The notes beneath the pieces are model-generated. The model had not been told where the DNA came from. It did no database searches and was given only the letters and a program-made list of their open reading frames with translations. DNA of 64,000 bases, from assembly GCA_002946415.1 (NCBI GenBank), contig NJPS01000011.1, positions 682,001 to 746,000 of the forward strand, given 5' to 3'. A program made the position numbers and the translations under genes. This DNA is from Rutstroemia sp. NJR-2017a BVV2 (Eukaryota > Ascomycota > Leotiomycetes > Helotiales > Rutstroemiaceae). Shown one piece after another: positions 53,397 to 62,246 of the stretch (its first letter is position 1; each line of letters starts with the position of its first letter).

Positions 53397-54864
53397 CTAC
53401 TCACCCGTCCCATCTCCCTCCCAAACCGCCTCCAAAATCCAAAGATTAGCACCAGCCGGCTGTTTGCCACCTTTAAATATAAATCGTGGATCTGCCTCCT
53501 CGAAGAGCTTCGCCCAATCTTCCAATTCTCTCTCCCTCGAGTTCTGCAACTCCAACATCGTAAGATCCATGGATCTTAATCGCTCTTCACGCCATCTTGG
53601 CAGAGAGCCCGGCTCCGGAAGCACGTTATCGTTGATTACGATGCGGGCGCCGCGCTTGAGTGCAGGGATATGGTTTCGTAGGATCTGGATGCAGTATTTA
53701 TCGGACCAGTTGTGAAAGATCCAGCGGAAGAAATAGACGTCTGCGTTCTTAACTGGCTGCTCAGTGAGAAAGTCGTAGGCCATAAACTTTATTCGGTCTG
53801 AAAGTTCCGAGGGCGTGCTCTTCTCGCCAGCTGCAACTACGGGCGGGAGGTCTTGGACTATGAAGGTGAGGGAGGGGAAGGCTTGGGCGAGACGAGCGCA
53901 GGCAAAACCATGCGAGCCGCCGACCTGTGGGTGGGTAGAATTAGTGGAATGAATTGGTCAACGAGAAAGGAATAGTGTTACATCAACGATAGTACCGCTT
54001 CCCAATCCCTCCCAGGGGTAGTTATCAATCACAGATTGGAGATCGTAGCCAGTTCCCTCGGTCCAGGCTTTCATGGCATTGCCAAAACGTCTTGCTCGTG
54101 GAGGATTCTGGGACAAAACTGCGAATACAGATTTGTCCGTGTTGTTGGCAAGGGCAAATCCCTGTGAATTGTTGTTAGTACATACCACAGTGCGACTCGT
54201 CTCATTGCTAGTTGGGATCACAAAATAACTATCCATACCGTTTCATTCGGCTCTTGCGATCCAGGCCACTTCACCATCGCGTTCACAGTCTGCGCCGCAG
54301 CTTGCCAGAGGTCGTCCGAGCTGGCTGCAACCCAATCCGCCATCTGTTGGTCTTCGGCTAACATCCGGGATGCAGCTGTGTGGGCGACGATGCCCTTCTT
54401 CGGTTCCTTGAACAGGCGTAAAGTCATAGCATGACGAATGATACGTCGAAGATCCAGTTCATTGATGCCACATTCTTTTGCTAGATCGGCATAAGATGCC
54501 TCTTCATGGATCGGAATGCTCTTGGCAATATTAAACCGACCAATTGCTTGCATGCTTATGAGCCAGTCATGCTTTGAAAAATTAGTGAGAACAATGTCAT
54601 GTGTCTGTGCTAGTCTCTACTCACGGTATATTTCATCAGATACTCCTTAGGTCCTAGGATAAGATCATGGAGCATCAATGTGGCATCAATGAGCTCGGAC
54701 CGAGCAGCTTCGAGCTCGGGAGCATCTGAAGGAACCAAGGGTCCGGTAGGAGCGTCAACGTCAAACGATGGGGACTTCAGGTCATGGCTGCTCAAGTAAT
54801 TCTCAATCTTCGCAGTGTTTGCTGAAATCTTCGCAGCTAATTCACCGATAGATGGTTGTGCCAT
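53397..54864 (-). CDS. SAM-dependent O-methyltransferase, secondary-metabolite type (426 aa)
   Basis: Exons 54864-54625, 54571-54239, 54161-53982 and 53924-53397 join in phase to 427 codons. The protein belongs to the plant/fungal O-methyltransferase family 2, like sterigmatocystin 8-O-methyltransferase. An N-terminal helical dimerisation domain (residues 1-170, with a winged-helix segment ADLAKECGINELDLRRIIRHA) precedes the Rossmann domain. SAM motif I is TIVDVGGSHGFACARLAQAF, with downstream FIVQDLP. The catalytic His is in FRWIFHNWSDKYC. No transit or signal peptide. It is followed by an MFS pump gene and the UstYa/precursor genes, so it is the likely tailoring methyltransferase of that cluster. 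The true substrate is unknown. Confidence 0.9.
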
Positions 54865-55668
54865 AATGAAATAAAGAATGATTGTCTGAGCAGCTTTCGA
54901 GAGGGGAGAGGCGGGGTATTTTATATCAGGGAAATAGGACTAGGTGAACGAACCCCTGCTGAGTATTATTATTATTATTGTCCTAATTCGAACGAATCAA
55001 AGGAAATATGCACTGAAAGCTCTAGTGTAACCTCCAAGGGGAAGGGAGAGTGGGTATAGAGATGTGCCAAGCCTCGGTTTATTTGCGTACCGCGGGAGGC
55101 ATTTCCGGCCACAGCATACTGGTTCAAGCTTGCGCCGTTCGAAGTGACTACCTATGTTTGGTTCAGAGTAAGTTTACGCCTCAGAGTGTTGCCCGGGGAG
55201 CGAATCCCTGCTGAGTTGGTCCTGGTGTTGCATATCGGGCCGCAGACGTGCATTGAGGGTGGAGCGTAAAGTCTGCATCTGAATGTCTTGTTAGATATTA
55301 TCCATGCAGCGAGAAAGCGTAACCTGAATATCTCAATATGGTAGGTAGTATCGTATGAGTCGATTCTGCAAACTCTGCATATACTGACTGACATGGAAAT
55401 TCAAAACCAGAAACCTTTCTGTAGTTTTAGGCCAATAAAGACGACTGTTATCATTGGAGGAGGTAGATCTTGGACAGGTTATTTGTCAGCAAACTATGGA
55501 TTCTACTTCTCCTTACACTATCTGATATTCTACGCATATATCGAGTTTGGGAATAATTTCAAGCGCTATCTGCATCTAACTGAATGAGCTGATTCGAACG
55601 AATGTCTCACTAACCAAGCAAACACCGCCAATAACTTTTCCCCCGTGAGCAAAATGATCAGATCATCA
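54865..55668. promoter_or_regulatory. Spacer between methyltransferase and MFS genes
   Basis: About 800 bp containing the methyltransferase promoter and the MFS 3' region. GAATTAGG/TTCGAACGAATC palindrome-like patches occur at about 54983-54995, and GATTCGAACGAATG again at 55592-55605. The shared TTCGAACGAAT sequence could be a common regulatory site. No gene was seen. Confidence 0.4.
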
Positions 55669-57521
55669 TTAGCCAGGACGTCGAAGGTTCAGCTTCTCTC
55701 TTTTCATGAATAGGGCCATGATGAGCGTCAGCGCACCGGCGACCATAGGTAAGACATATGCCTTACTCATTGCCTTTACGATTTCGTGCAAGATTTCCTG
55801 CTGTAGATCATCACTGACACCCGGCATTCTTCCTGATGATGCTCCAGAAATGGCGGCCTGGATGGTCCCCACGGATAGAGATGGTGCCAATTTCTGCACA
55901 CCAGCAACTGAGTCGTTCAAAAAAACAGCATCTGCGATGCACAATGCGACAGCGGGTCCTGCTAATTGCGCAAATGTACAATAGCCAATGGCAATGGGAA
56001 CTTCGTGCTTTTCGACTTTCGATTGGCAAACTGTGAAAGATAACTGAACAAATGCCCCGCCTCCAATGCCAAGCAGTATAGTGTAGCCCCAAATGTTCGC
56101 GGCAGAAGTAAATTCATCAACGGTATACATAAGGCTACTACCAATAAGACATGCGGAGCCAGCAAGAACATACCAAGGCATGTAGTATGGCTTTTTGCTC
56201 ATTCCAATTCCATTGAGCATGGCGGTCGTAACATTGAAGACGACATATGGCAATAATTGAATGCCTGCCTGAAGGGCGGAGTCGTTCCGCACGAACTGAA
56301 AATAGAGAGGAATGAAGTAAACTGGCACGAAGATGGCACATGAAGCCGAAGCCGTAGTGAAAAACATCATCATCAGGAGAGGTGAGCGGAGGAAGTGGAC
56401 CGGAAACAATCGCTGGCTTATTGTAGTTCCAATAGCCCAAGTCTGCTGAACTGCAAAGAATAAGAGGAGTACTCCAGCAGTTACAAACAGGCCAATGATT
56501 CTACCACTGCTCCAAGAATAGACGGTTCCTCCAAAGGATACGGCCATTATTCCAGCAGCGAAACAGCCACATACAAGTAAAGTTCCAATGAAGTCAACAT
56601 TCTTGAGGCGCCCGATCACCGAAGTGGTAGTGGGGTTTCGTGGTGGTGCCGACGGGAGAAGAAACAAGTAGATTGGTGCGCAAACTCCACCGACCACAAG
56701 GTTAATATAAAATGCCTGGAACCACCATGTCAATAAACCTCCTCGAACATATAATGAATTGACTCACCCATCGCCATGTAGCATTGCTGACCGTGAAAGC
56801 TCCCCCCAGAATTGGACCTAGGATTGTTCCGGTTCCCCAAGTCAATCCGCAAAGACCGAAGTAGATTGGTCGTTCGTATTCCAAAGTAGTAACGGATAGT
56901 AGGACCATAACTCCTGAATACATGCCGGCACCACCAAGTCCACAAATTGCTCTACCCGCGATCAAAGCATCCATATTAGGTGCTGCACCACAAACAGCGG
57001 AGCCAATTTCGAAGAGAACAACACACGTGATATAAACATATTTGGCATCGAACTGTGAGTATATTTGACCCCTGCAATGAAGATATCAGATATGAACGAA
57101 TTTAATAGAGAGATTGGACTCAATGGGAATGGAATTATTACCAGAAGAGATTTGTCCCAGATGCCCCAAGTAGAAAAGCAACTGGAAGCCAAGCTAACTT
57201 ATCAATCGATGAGAATTGCCGGACGATTGAGGGCTGCACGTCGGCAACGATTGTGTTATCAAGTGAGAAGAGAAATGTTGATGAAAGAATTGAGAGTACA
57301 ACTAGGGCCCATCGTGCGCCGGTGACATTACGAGGGCGGCATGAAGAAATCTCTTCGTCGATGCTTGGTTTCTTCGAAGAACCGTCTAAGCCATCAACTT
57401 CTTGGACGTCTTCAGCTCTTGTGCTCAGGATTTCCTTCGTAGTAGGCTCAGAAACCACGGAATGAACCATGACAGGCGGCTTTTGCTGCTTTTCGAGGTC
57501 AAGGTTCATTTCATTCGCCAT
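55669..57521 (-). CDS. MFS multidrug/metabolite efflux transporter (576 aa)
   Basis: Exons 57521-57142, 57071-56768 and 56715-55669 join in phase to 577 codons. The N-terminal 75 residues are cytosolic and polar. About 14 hydrophobic segments follow, as in the DHA2 (14-spanner) drug:H+ antiporters. Landmarks: FSLDNTIVADVQPSI in helix 1 (the usual motif is LDxTIVxxALP), AGRAICGLGGAGMYSG (motif B/C region), GLTWGTGTILGPILGGAF (antiporter motif C) and WRWAFYINLVVGG. The ATG at 57521 (MANEMN) is chosen because the frame upstream lacks family-like sequence. Such pumps export fungal metabolites and give self-protection. It sits between the methyltransferase and the RiPP precursor on the same strand. 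Confidence 0.93.
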
Positions 57522-58672
57522 GGTGAAGCGTTGCAATGGTCTGTAGGAGGGGGTAGTTGCTAGTCCTTGAAGATTTCTTGGAGGGAAAACGACTTCAACT
57601 TCGCCGACTTCTCGTCCTTCATATCGATGCTTTCCAGACCATATGCCCAAACACAAGATCCTACCTTACCTTGCCGCATAAGTCCTAGAGGTTTGCATAT
57701 CAGTCACAACTATCGGCAAATAGTCAAGAAGGGTGGCTTGCAAATTCAACGCCTGCCAAGTACATCTGTGCCGCGTTGAAGAACGTACCAACACCGGGCA
57801 ATTTTTCCAATGACAATTGATTATCATGCTGCAGTTGGTAGGAAATCACCAACATTGTAGAAACCAACATTGTGATATCCGAATACTTCAACAATCATTT
57901 GATCTATGTCTCACTGTGGTTACATTCGCCCTTGCAGAAAGCACGGACGGCACACGCGTTGTTCTCTGTCGACATCGGGACACTTCCAAGTATGAGCCAG
58001 ACAAAGTCAAAAGCTGGGACGCCTACAGCGTAGTATAATGTAACAGTTGGTGCGTTCCACATGCATCCATGTTTGTTTTGGCGGGATCGCCTCGGAGCCG
58101 GCCTAGAAAGGCAAGGTTGAAGCGTTCCCGGGAAAATGGTACCAATCAGCGATCCTAAAAGCCTTGCGCTCTTCTTACCAACTGAAACCCAACTCCTGCG
58201 AGTATTACTTCGTAGAGGCTAAGTGCTGCGCCGTCCGTGGTCGGCCTGATATCGACTGGATAATACCCATTTGCCGCAAAATCTGCCGGGCAACATTGAG
58301 CATCAGCTCAACCATTGGACATCCTGATGCTTGACCGGTACTCAGCGCTTATTTTCATGCACAATCAAGCTTTACGAGTCGCCACAAATATCTTCATCGG
58401 CAAAAACAAGAACTCTCATTATCTCATTATTGTGGACGGAAATTATCACTGCTCAAAGAGATAGGGACCAACAGAGTAGCTTGCGTAGCTTGCATGGTTT
58501 AATTATTTTTGGTTTAGGAAAGTGTTGAATCAATCCTACTGTAGCGCTCGGCCCGTTGCGTGAGCATCGGCTGTCAAACTGAACAAACTGCCGACGTGCG
58601 ACGTGAAACATGAAACAGCGGGCCGTAAACGATAATGTTAACCTTATCTACAAACACCCTTTGTCACAACCT
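57522..58672. promoter_or_regulatory. MFS promoter and precursor 3' region
   Basis: About 1.15 kb with no gene supported. Small frames show no domains. An imperfect repeat AACCAACATTGT / CACCAACATTGT is seen at about 57847-57873. Confidence 0.5.
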
Positions 58673-59041
58673 TCATTTTTCCTCGACCTCTTTCTCCGTC
58701 CCATCTTCATTGAACCAAGCGTAGGCGATCGCATCATCATCATCACCACCATCAGCTGGGGTACGCGATTCAACCTTCTTTTCCGTACCATCTTCGTTGA
58801 ACCAAGCATATGCGATAGCATCATCGTCATCGGCACCATCGGCGGGGGCACGTGCTACAACGGCAGTGTGCAAATGACTAGCTCGTTGCTCTACTCCAAC
58901 TAATGCACCTATATTACCCCTGTCAAACCAGCATTCTTAAAGACCAGTGGGTCACTCACGAGCTTCGGCCAGTTGTGCTGGCTTTGGGAGAGCCATTATG
59001 GCCGGGACCACAAGTGCAAAGATAAGACTGGCGCAGCGCAT
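58673..59041 (-). CDS. Putative dikaritin-type RiPP precursor with two peptide repeats (87 aa)
   Basis: Exons 59041-58960 and 58854-58673 (82+182 nt) join across a 105-nt intron (GTGAGT...GTTGTAG) to 88 codons. The first exon encodes a signal peptide (MRCASLIFALVVPAIMALP). The second encodes two tandem units of 29-30 residues, each R-(A/T)-P-A-D-G-(A/G) followed by the identical block DDDDAIAYAWFNEDGTEK, then (K/E)-V-E. Secretory leader plus near-identical acidic repeats with an aromatic core (Tyr, Trp, Phe) is the plan of Kex2-processed repeat proteins and of UstA-like precursors. Eight of the 18 codons in the shared block differ, all silently. Two DUF3328 oxidase genes lie within 3.2 kb, supporting a RiPP role. 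Unusual: units begin after a single Arg, and KK is present only in the first unit, so the releasing protease is unclear. Mature product and bioactivity unknown. Confidence 0.8.
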
Positions 59042-60089
59042 GTTGTTGTGCGAATATGGACAGGTGGACTTGGATGGGGATGGTATTGAACGTGATCTGA
59101 TAGTAGAAAAAAGACTGACAGGATTTGAATCTAGCACAGAGAAAACTTGGCTTCCCAGGGAAGGAGGGCTTCACTAATAAACCTTTTAGTTGCTCAACTG
59201 ATTACTTCATTTCCTGCCGAAGAAGAATCGGTAACCGCGAGATCCCCTGTCTAGTATGTGACCAACCTCTTCCTCGGTCATATCACCCAATTCGTAGCTG
59301 AAGTTTCCTGAGATGGTTGCCATTCGTTTCTTCGATCCAAAAACATGTTGCTCTATCAGGCTGTGCCACATAGAAACTTCTACAGAACTGGACCGAGTTA
59401 TACTTGCACATTTTAATCAAAGGTTGCATACCACAGTTGGTTCTCCCGGTGGATCTACACCAAGCATCTCCCGAACGAGGCTGGGCAAGGATAGAAATTT
59501 GACGCCGGTGCCTCAATGTGAGACTATATTGCTCTGTGCCACACAGTGACTTCTGTAGAATGAGGGCGAATTCCACCTCCAATTTCATATTTCCAGCTTT
59601 CTTGGACCTGATTACGCAAGTGCCAACAGGTTGGAGAGTTGCAATCAACCAAGTGGGTATGAATCCATATGATACGCCTCCAACACACATCCCGTCCAAT
59701 ATTGGCAGGCTGATAGCATACTTCATCACTAAGTCATATCACAATGCGGCGCTGCGGCACCGCGGCGCCTAAATCAATTTCAAGCAGAACCGCAAGTAGC
59801 AGTTAGCTGTTTGATGCATCTCGTCTCAGTTATGAGAGATCGAATCACTGAAAAGACTTGCATGGTTACCGTTGACATCATCGATGAAACTGTATGGGCT
59901 TCTTGAATATCGTATTATATCATATTTTATTATTTGCCATTTTAGTCTATTTCCCCTCTCAATCTGAAGAGCCTCACAATCAAACCGTGGACTCCAGTAC
60001 TCGCCTTCTCCCATATCTTTTCCAGCTCACATTCACCCTTTGACTTGAATCCCATAATTTCTATAATCATTTCAATCGATTCATTCGCA
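59042..60089. promoter_or_regulatory. Divergent region between precursor (-) and first UstYa gene (+)
   Basis: About 1.05 kb that probably holds both promoters. It contains an imperfect direct repeat: CTGTGCCACATAGAAACTTCTACAGAA-like at 59361-59386 and a similar stretch at 59534-59560 (about 20 of 24 bases shared). A 148-codon minus-strand frame (59283-59729) has no domain and was not accepted as a gene. Confidence 0.5.
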
Positions 60090-60897
60090 ATGAATCTCAA
60101 GTCTATGAACCCTCTAGGGCCTAAAAATGCTAAATATATGCCAGTTGATCGAGCTGATGTGCTGGAAAAAGGCGAGAGTTCAACTTCGAGAGTCTCACGG
60201 CCATCTTTCTTGCTGTTTTTAGGGTTTCTTTGCTTCGTGGCGGTAGCTATTTCCGCGTACTTTGTCGGCAAGCATATAGGTAGAGAAGAGAATCGTCACG
60301 ACTGGCTTAGTACGTGGTTCCACATCTTTCACACCAGAAATGCTAACTTGAAGTATTGTAGCACCACCGGGTACTGTTGATCATACTTTCAAATACAATA
60401 GACCATTCGCAGAGAAGCCTACGAATGAAACAGAAAAGACCTGGGAAGTCATGTTTCCTCGTAAGGTGACTGCCCGCAATCGTTCTAACAAAGCTAATAT
60501 GGTAACCAGGTGGCCGTGGCTTCATTGAAAATCCAGCTGTGTCTCCCAAGCCGATGGGCGTTGCTGTATTTCATCAGCTTCACTGCTTGGTATGTCACAT
60601 ATGACCCAATGCCGTCGCAGCCAAACTGATATTTCGCAGGATGCAATTCGCAGAAGCTATTATGCTGCCATTGATGGAGTGGAGCTAAATCATCATCTTG
60701 CTCCGGGTCATGTGCGCCACTGCATTGATTATTTGAGACAGTCTCTCATGTGTGCCGCCGATACAAACTTGGAGCCCATCGATCCTGAACTAGGTGGTGT
60801 GACTGGTTTTGGAAATCCAAGGAAATGCAGGGACATCATCGCACTCATTAAATGGACAGATAAATGGCGGAGTCATGATCAGAGTACGATTCTGTAG
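60090..60897 (+). CDS. UstYa-like DUF3328 oxidase 1 (218 aa)
   Basis: Exons 60090-60309, 60362-60460, 60510-60589 and 60640-60897 join in phase to 219 codons. Like other UstYa/DUF3328 proteins it has a short cytosolic head, one membrane anchor (SFLLFLGFLCFVAVAISAYFV, about residues 36-56) and a lumenal catalytic domain. The two hallmark motifs are HQLHC (residues 128-132) and HVRHC (157-161), followed by IDYLRQSLMCAADTNLEP. Such proteins carry out oxidative cyclisation or other oxidation on ribosomal peptides in ustiloxin, asperipin and phomopsin pathways; some members act as halogenases or hydroxylases. The gene starts about 1 kb from the precursor and is transcribed away from it. The exact reaction is not predictable. 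ATG 60090 is preferred over an in-frame one at 60045 because it gives the usual short head. Confidence 0.9.
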
Positions 60898-61424
60898 TCC
60901 ATGAAACATGACTGGTAGTCGTGGTAGTGATAGTATTATAATAGTTGTAACTTTTCAATTGTACCTGCGTCACAGAAGTCCAACTGCTTTCATCCGATTC
61001 TATATGTGAGTTTTTCTTCTCTGATGGTTGATCGATGAATCCATCAACATCTTGTACTGGTAGTAACTAAGCATCAAGTAAATCTTAACGGACTGGGCCT
61101 GGAATACAAGCATAAACTAAAAAATGGAAATTCATGATGGCCATGTTAGTTATGATAGGTATATTAAAGAGACACAAAGAAGTTGGTTCGTTTGCTTTGG
61201 GGGTGGCCCGGGTGGGGGGAAAAGGGAAAGCACTAGGCGTGTGGACCTGTGGTCACTGGTCACTTCGTGCACAAGTTTCTTGGTTGAAATTTCCTTGACA
61301 TATACTCATTTTCCTAATAATCCAAATAACTACAAGACCGACGAGAAGAAGAAGTACATCCTTGTCATGGTTGCCACGCTGTCTCACCACAATCCCGTGC
61401 CATTAGTGCTCTTATTTCGAACGC
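60898..61424. other. Convergent spacer between the two UstYa genes
   Basis: About 530 bp between the 3' ends of the two DUF3328 genes. No gene or repeat was recognised; poly-purine tracts occur at 61200-61240. Confidence 0.6.
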
Positions 61425-62246
61425 CTAATTTCTCTCCGGCAATACTAGCAGATTTGGGTCGAAAAGATTCACAGATCTTTCCTCTGCCCAAGATGAAAGT
61501 TTGTCCCAATTAATGCATTGATGAGGAGCACCTTCAAGGGTCGTTGGTTCAATGTTGTTGCCCTGTTTGAGCCACTTGTAACTGGTAACTGAGATGTCGC
61601 CTTTGCAGATGGCAGCTTGTCGGAGGAGCTCAAGGCAATGCTCGGCATGTGTCTCGTGCTCGATCTTCTGGATCCTCGTCTCGTTCGGATAGTAATAGTC
61701 TTTGTAAAAATATTTACGAATTCTCTTGATGCAATGGAGCTCGTGGTAAACGCCGAGGGTGCCCAAGTATCCAGAACCGTCCGCCAGTTTGAGGGAACTC
61801 TGGCCCAGCTTAGCCATCTCGTCGTGATTGATTCGTAGATTGATACCATGCAGAAGCTCACTCCATGCTGCGTCTGAATCAGGATTGGGATGACCAGCGA
61901 AGATGCTGTCAGTGTGCAGACCGTCAACTTTCTTAGTCGTGTATTCTATTGCTCCTTGTGCTGGTGCTACGGAAAGATGTCAGTCGACACGATTCATTCA
62001 CAGAAATCTAAACATACAATAAGTCAGGCTATGGGCCGTTACGGATGCATGCCTATAACGCGTCATAAAGTACACATATGTGACTGTATAAAACGTGATC
62101 AGGGCGAAGTGCAAGGCAATGAGAACATAACGTGACTGGAACTTCTGTCCCAGTTTGTTCTCTTCGATGATAGTAGACAGATTGCTGTCATCTTCTGAGT
62201 CGCGATACTCCTTCTTGAGGAATGGTTCATTGCTTTGTTCATCCAT
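61425..62246 (-). CDS. UstYa-like DUF3328 oxidase 2 (256 aa)
   Basis: Exons 62246-62018 and 61966-61425 join across a 51-nt intron to 257 codons. A polar head (MDEQSNEPFLKKEY) is followed by a membrane anchor (YVLIALHFALITFYTVTYVYF, about residues 39-60). The lumenal domain shows the DUF3328 substrate-region motif FAGHPNPDSDAAWSELL, then HELHC (151-155) and HAEHC (183-187) with LELLRQAAICKGDI. All four His and both Cys of the paired motifs are present. It shares only these motifs with oxidase 1, so the two probably do different steps, as UstYa and UstYb do in ustiloxin synthesis. ATG 62246 is chosen; an upstream in-frame ATG at 62297 would add 17 residues. Confidence 0.9.

Follow-up and report, generated by a model that had tools for sequence, protein, structure and literature searches.

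The stretch analysed here, hereafter the window, comprises 64,000 bases of the genome of Rutstroemia sp. NJR-2017a BVV2, a leotiomycete of the order Helotiales (G000:C3:682001-746000 in an assembly of 43.4 Mb). Its segment between 53.4 and 62.2 kb contains an O-methyltransferase (OMT)-family gene, a transporter gene of the major facilitator superfamily (MFS), a gene for a secreted precursor with two repeats and two intact UstYa (DUF3328) genes. Judging from sequence, this group of genes is probably a cluster for a ribosomally synthesized and post-translationally modified peptide (RiPP) of the UstYa (dikaritin) kind, whose product would be a new modified peptide. The evidence lies in the gene structures and their domains, the coding constraint on the repeats, a block conserved in three genera and the consecutive locus tags of a precursor and a UstYa gene in Sclerotinia nivalis. 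Among the open-access papers listed for UstYa proteins, dikaritins and Rutstroemia, none describes the cluster in the opening part of its abstract. A preliminary description of the window had placed the same five genes in this segment, and both the gene models and the Pfam domains agree with it:

53397 to 54864, minus strand: OMT-family protein of 426 amino acids in 4 exons, modelled by splicing, with a match to Pfam Methyltransf_2 at E 3.4e-26.
55669 to 57521, minus strand: MFS transporter of 577 amino acids (exons 57521-57142, 57071-56768 and 56715-55669), based on splicing and hydropathy.
58673 to 59041, minus strand: precursor of 105 amino acids (exons 59041-58960 and 58908-58673, separated by a GT-AG intron of 51 nt).
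60090 to 60897, plus strand: UstY1, a UstYa/DUF3328 oxidase homologue of 218 amino acids (exons 60090-60309, 60362-60460, 60510-60589 and 60640-60897).
61425 to 62246, minus strand: UstY2, a UstYa/DUF3328 oxidase homologue of 256 amino acids (exons 62246-62018 and 61966-61425).

In all five gene models the frames stay open across the introns, and the introns are of the GT-AG type. The precursor has a hydrophobic N-terminus, as judged by hydropathy, followed by two copies of DDDDAIAYAWFNEDGTEK, and its leader is similar across three homologues in an alignment. This exact repeat of 18 identical residues lies within the longer near-repeat PADG[AG]DDDDAIAYAWFNEDGTEK, and the precursor has no Pfam match. 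The repeats are under coding constraint: their two copies differ by 8 nucleotides over 18 codons without any amino acid change, all differences being silent, and when 8 random changes were simulated with the observed transition share (5/8) the protein remained unchanged in 1 of 400,000 simulations. Moreover, in a six-frame scan of the 64,000 bases for identical 9-mers within one open frame with at least two nucleotide differences, the precursor repeat was the only coding repeat differing in DNA; as a control, the scan was applied to 41 loci around other UstYa matches, with 217,290 overlapping bases, where 3 loci gave hits, and to four 10-kb loci of the right flank, which yielded a single hit, opposite an ankyrin open reading frame (ORF). 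A DNA pattern for AIAYAW matched only the two precursor repeats across the genome, and an acidic-Tyr-aromatic pattern was found only in the precursor within the window and in none of the 41 other UstYa-flanking loci. The silent-only divergence of the repeats, together with the homologues in S. nivalis and Chaetomium, argues for a genuine precursor gene. In the protein searches, neither the precursor nor UstY1 was returned from Rutstroemia sp. NJR-2017a BVV2 and, therefore, both seem to be unannotated in their own genome.

The protein search with the precursor scored 89 word-sharing candidates, three of which reached E 0.1 or better. The homologue from S. nivalis is 81% identical and of equal length, with both 18-residue repeats unchanged; between the two species the repeats are identical at 36 of 36 positions and the leader and linker at 44 of 64 (Fisher p 4.6e-5, with the caveat that one repeat is not independent of the other, and with the tail of 5 residues, identical at 5/5, excluded). 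The homologues from Chaetomium fimeti and C. globosum (E 1.5e-4 and 7e-4) are 73 amino acids long, with similar leaders and one GGDDDDAIAYAWY block. What these distant homologues have in common is DDDDAIAYAW[FY]xED, a block conserved in three genera, with Tyr, Trp and Phe or Tyr as the aromatic residues kept throughout. The preliminary description had given the repeat block as AIAYAWFNEDGTEK; the repeat exists, in two copies, but that block starts four residues late, and the core boundary therefore needs shifting. No confirmed relative of the S. nivalis precursor was found in viral contigs, and the open-access literature (subscription papers being outside its scope) yielded no mention of AIAYAW, nor was any found there of the locus tags CHGG_06032-06034 and OCU04_006017/006018.

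Both UstYa proteins match PF11807 (UstY1 at E 2e-23 and UstY2 at E 5e-51) and each carries the HxxHC motif twice, as HQLHC and HVRHC and as HELHC and HAEHC, respectively; paired HxxHC motifs in the two DUF3328 proteins had also been noted in the preliminary description. Both motifs are present in 20 of 20 rows of an alignment of the window's UstY1 with 19 of its 87 hits, and in the alignment of UstY2 with 18 of its 30 hits the row P0023 is without the Cys of the second motif. No near-identical protein was returned for UstY1, whose top hit is 59% identical over 81% of the query and whose highest local identity, 69%, extends over half of the query. All 256 residues of UstY2 are identical in the annotated protein P0004 of Rutstroemia sp. 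NJR-2017a BVV2, the annotation of which extends 16 residues beyond the UstY2 model at the N-terminus, and UstY2 is 79% identical to P0005 of S. nivalis. No sequence relatives of these enzymes were found in the PDB at E 1 or better, nor any confirmed relative in bacterial, archaeal and viral collections with the UstY1 profile. The AlphaFold2 models are weak, both for UstY2 (P0004; predicted template modelling score 0.51, mean predicted local distance difference test (pLDDT) 71.6) and for P0043 of C. fimeti as a stand-in for UstY1 (0.43 and mean pLDDT 64.1, respectively), and when the UstY2 model was compared with the PDB by Foldseek, the best match had an E of 0.2 and none reached 0.001.

Across the genome there are 79 exon-level UstYa matches, 78 of them above the family cut-off, and grouping at 10 kb gives 31 loci, of which only one lies on contig C3 and some may be assembly duplicates. 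Contig C74 repeats the UstYa matches of C50 and C25 at the same scores, and in the case of C25 the coordinates agree as well, an indication that the assembly contains duplicated sequence. Since UstYa genes are common in this genome, the interest of the locus lies in the precursor and not in the presence of UstYa. This seemingly unannotated precursor is of a type with one or two blocks and has homologues in three genera.

The link between precursor and UstYa genes, which the preliminary description had stated for the window, recurs in another genus. The tags of the S. nivalis precursor and UstY2 orthologue run consecutively (OCU04_006017 and OCU04_006018, respectively), and the contig size given for both is 2,869,516. 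For C. fimeti, the precursor shares a contig size of 4,941,720 with a homologue of UstY1 (59% identity over 75% of the query), a link that is weak taken alone. Homologues of UstY1 and UstY2 from the same organism and on equal-sized contigs were found in six xylarialean genomes, namely Xylaria nigripes, X. flabelliformis, X. sp. FL1777, X. multiplex, X. cf. heliscus and Nemania sp. FL0916, with gene numbers 4494 and 4495 in X. multiplex and a more distant pair in Nemania sp. FL0916. These links thus speak against the possibility, raised in the preliminary description, that orthologues of the precursor never adjoin DUF3328 genes. In fungi generally, the available text of PMC7329392 describes UstYa genes as enriched beside genes for secreted repeat precursors. 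In trees built from 39 of the 87 UstY1 hits with the window's protein and from 21 of the 30 UstY2 hits, UstY1 clusters with one sequence from a lichen fungus and one from a metagenome, adjoining a Xylaria/Chaetomium clade, and UstY2 falls together with S. nivalis and a pair of metagenome sequences, adjoining Xylaria. Horizontal transfer was considered and is not claimed, the distribution in the trees being patchy and their resolution insufficient.

The following pathway may be proposed for the cluster. The N-terminal hydrophobic signal would take the precursor into the endoplasmic reticulum, where the two membrane-anchored UstYa oxidases, with the paired HxxHC motifs as their suspected active site, would act oxidatively on the Tyr- and Trp-containing DDDDAIAYAW(F/Y), most likely by cross-linking, in keeping with the chemistry of the family and by analogy to cyclisation in ustiloxin, phomopsin and asperipin-2a. 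A Tyr-Trp or Tyr-Ile link within the block is the simplest guess. A Golgi protease could then release the blocks by cutting at an Arg that stands six residues upstream of the Asp run and is followed by A/T-P-A-D-G; this Arg precedes each repeat of Rutstroemia and S. nivalis and may be the cleavage point. Finally, the OMT-family enzyme might tailor or methylate the product, and the MFS pump might export it. A more far-reaching and more tentative proposal is that these genes could represent a separate UstYa RiPP family across Leotiomycetes and Sordariomycetes, with one or two long acidic DDDDAIAYAW[FY]xED blocks instead of many short Kex2-bounded cores and with an aromatic Tyr-x-Trp cross-link, which the published rule for Kex2-processed repeat proteins (KEPs) has overlooked. 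UstYa genes can be numerous in a fungal genome, and some UstYa clusters are without a recognisable precursor. For such orphan clusters a precursor family of this kind, with its one or two cores and no conserved dibasic spacing, would, if real, offer a concrete search target, and it would also offer a substrate for probing how UstYa enzymes act on a Tyr/Trp block.

Among the known systems, asperipin has the core FYYTGY. The cluster of asperipin-2a in Aspergillus flavus, as far as its available descriptions go, resembles that of Rutstroemia in its secreted precursor with Tyr-bearing blocks, its UstYa-type oxidase and possibly its transporter, and it is a dikaritin cluster with the signature gene only, the usual extra enzymes being absent (PMC12048977). 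However, asperipin-2a has one UstYa gene and Kex2-bounded repeats typically of 8 amino acids (PMC7329392), whereas Rutstroemia has two UstYa genes and a precursor with two long acidic repeats and no conserved dibasic sites between them. Ustiloxin and phomopsin share with the Rutstroemia cluster the UstYa genes (2 in the ustiloxin cluster and 5 in that of phomopsin; PMC7329392), a secreted repeat precursor and possibly a methyltransferase. Nevertheless, according to the available text of the same paper, they depend on a tyrosinase and the cores that they cyclise are Tyr-x-Ile, in contrast to the Tyr-Ala-Trp block of Rutstroemia and the absence of a tyrosinase match on its contig, and the ustiloxin enzyme is an N-methyltransferase (PMC12048977), whereas the Rutstroemia locus encodes a Methyltransf_2 protein.

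Definitions of dikaritins allow a direct comparison. As regards the class-defining enzyme, UstY1 and UstY2 are DUF3328/UstYa proteins with two HxxHC motifs, and the precursor has a putative N-terminal secretion signal by its hydropathy and leader similarity. As regards the five-gene definition by Ding et al., as cited in the available text of PMC12048977, the precursor motif is repeated as two 18-residue units in Rutstroemia and S. nivalis and present as one block only in Chaetomium; no tyrosinase match lies on the contig, although working dikaritin clusters without some of the listed enzymes exist according to the same source. For the methyltransferase and the transporter or peptidase of that definition, the locus offers the adjacent OMT-family and MFS genes as candidates, linked to it by proximity only, the former with HpiI and LepI among its best solved relatives. 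The dikaritin-type reading of the preliminary description holds in so far as UstYa genes adjoin a secreted precursor with repeats. It falls short in that the repeats are not classical Kex2-processed ones, no tyrosinase match lies on the contig, the core boundary was misplaced and the OMT-family and MFS genes are linked by proximity only. The KEPs of a 1461-genome survey, 22% of which lie near DUF3328 genes, likewise have a signal sequence and tandem repeats (PMC7329392). The rule given in the available text of that paper calls for 3 or more tandem repeats, each no shorter than 8 amino acids, between KR, KK, RK or RR sites in annotated proteins; the precursor, with two repeats, a single KK in Rutstroemia and no dibasic site in S. 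nivalis, would therefore be overlooked, being also without conserved dibasic spacing and seemingly unannotated. The lichen RiPP clans R1 and R2 are comparable as UstYa clusters without a classical repeat precursor; in the available text of PMC12048977 no repeat precursor was found for them and a single-core precursor is raised as a possibility, whereas Rutstroemia has a precursor candidate, with single-block homologues in Chaetomium. Sclerotinia sclerotiorum, a relative of S. nivalis, has four adjacent DUF3328 pairs, one of them within a cluster of co-expressed genes that has been put forward as a RiPP producer and for which, unlike in Rutstroemia, no precursor is named in the accessible portion of PMC6941272.

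Several observations weigh against the RiPP reading and have to be considered together with its alternatives. Dibasic Kex2 sites are not conserved among the precursor homologues, those of Chaetomium having RR or RRR twelve residues upstream of the Asp run of their single block. Furthermore, the precursor search gave no Xylaria protein, although Xylaria genomes carry homologues of both UstY1 and UstY2. Both points would suit a precursor that is secreted as an unmodified linear peptide or as a small protein resembling an effector, with the UstYa pair acting elsewhere, as would the fact that 78% of KEPs are without a nearby UstYa gene and that some known ones are linear, according to the available text of PMC7329392. 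This alternative is nonetheless regarded as unlikely, as the precursor and UstY2 have consecutive tags in S. nivalis, the precursor and a UstY1 homologue share a contig size in C. fimeti, and the gap in Xylaria may reflect missed annotation, as seemingly in the Rutstroemia genome itself. Also unfavourable to the RiPP reading, no UstY2 hit is named Chaetomium and no UstY1 hit is named C. globosum, in hit lists made of 90% identity clusters in which a namesake may hide in a cluster named otherwise. The sole S. nivalis hit of UstY1 (P0082) is only 33% identical and lies on another contig and, thus, the annotated precursor sits with UstY2 alone in that species. Missed annotation or the 90% clustering may explain part of these missing homologues.

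Tyrosinase is likewise a point against a dikaritin cluster, since none of the genome's 23 matches to PF00264 lies on contig C3, and so are the upstream regions. A crude scan of the five 450-bp regions found one 7-mer in four of them (random mean 1.07) and no 8- or 9-mer common to four or five, and 300 random sets gave no fewer. DUF3328 genes also occur in polyketide and nonribosomal peptide synthetase clusters (PMC12048977, available text), so that the UstYa pair, the OMT-family gene and the MFS gene might belong to a non-RiPP pathway of either kind, with the precursor as a mere neighbour. Such a pathway appears improbable. The best solved relatives of the OMT-family protein, HpiI (7bqo, E 9.8e-53), followed by 7bqj (Methyltransf_2) and, slightly lower, LepI, would agree with it, as HpiI and LepI are presumably OMT-like pericyclases of polyketide-derived pathways. 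However, no polyketide synthase, nonribosomal peptide synthetase or other backbone-enzyme domain was detected by Pfam among 22 ORFs of the left and 16 of the right flank, and the link between precursor and UstYa recurs in another genus. Least probable of all, and very much so, is a decayed or never expressed cluster, which the lack of an annotated precursor and UstY1 in the Rutstroemia genome might suggest; the five models open across their introns and the coding constraint on the repeats speak against it.

The same flanking ORFs, picked from ORF lists in which small genes may have been overlooked, and leaving out the ORFs of L006 and the window ORFs left of 21.4 kb, contained no additional RiPP-type gene and, therefore, the cluster probably consists of these five genes at most. 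To its right lie a fungal rhodopsin-domain gene and then ORFs of the kinetochore Fta4, aminotransferase, ankyrin, HET, dioxygenase and hydrolase families, and to its left ORFs of the LIM, inositol-phosphate synthase, dehydrogenase, DUF3405 and GH31 families, all assigned by Pfam. The OMT-family and MFS genes adjoin the precursor and UstYa genes and are tied to the pathway by this proximity only. The former is predicted to encode what may be a methyltransferase or an OMT-like enzyme, and the MFS protein is a possible exporter. Its open frame with the last exon matches MFS_1 at E 1.2e-10, and the piece with the first exon alone has no Pfam match. A shared promoter motif was dropped as a candidate, no word being common to the five upstream regions beyond chance. 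Two copies of the 12-mer ATTCGAACGAAT lie in the window, one at 54986 upstream of the OMT gene and the other at 55592 just 3' of the MFS gene.

Elsewhere in the genome, two further repeat ORFs lie close to UstYa matches. A tryptophan-rich ORF with dibasic repeats (AWPEAWADKR, WADKR) on the plus strand of contig C15 (L040:7445-8149, corresponding to G000:C15:880445-881149) lies about 2 kb from a UstYa match and is possibly kin to the pheromone-like repeat protein near a DUF3328 gene reported for another strain of Rutstroemia in the available text of PMC7329392. On contig C59, a Kex2-type repeat ORF on the plus strand (L043:5380-5637, corresponding to G000:C59:45880-46137) has six GTDADAANKVY copies split by KR or RR and is flanked by UstYa matches at about 44.4 and 46.7 kb, which makes it, from its sequence, a candidate for a second, textbook dikaritin-type precursor.

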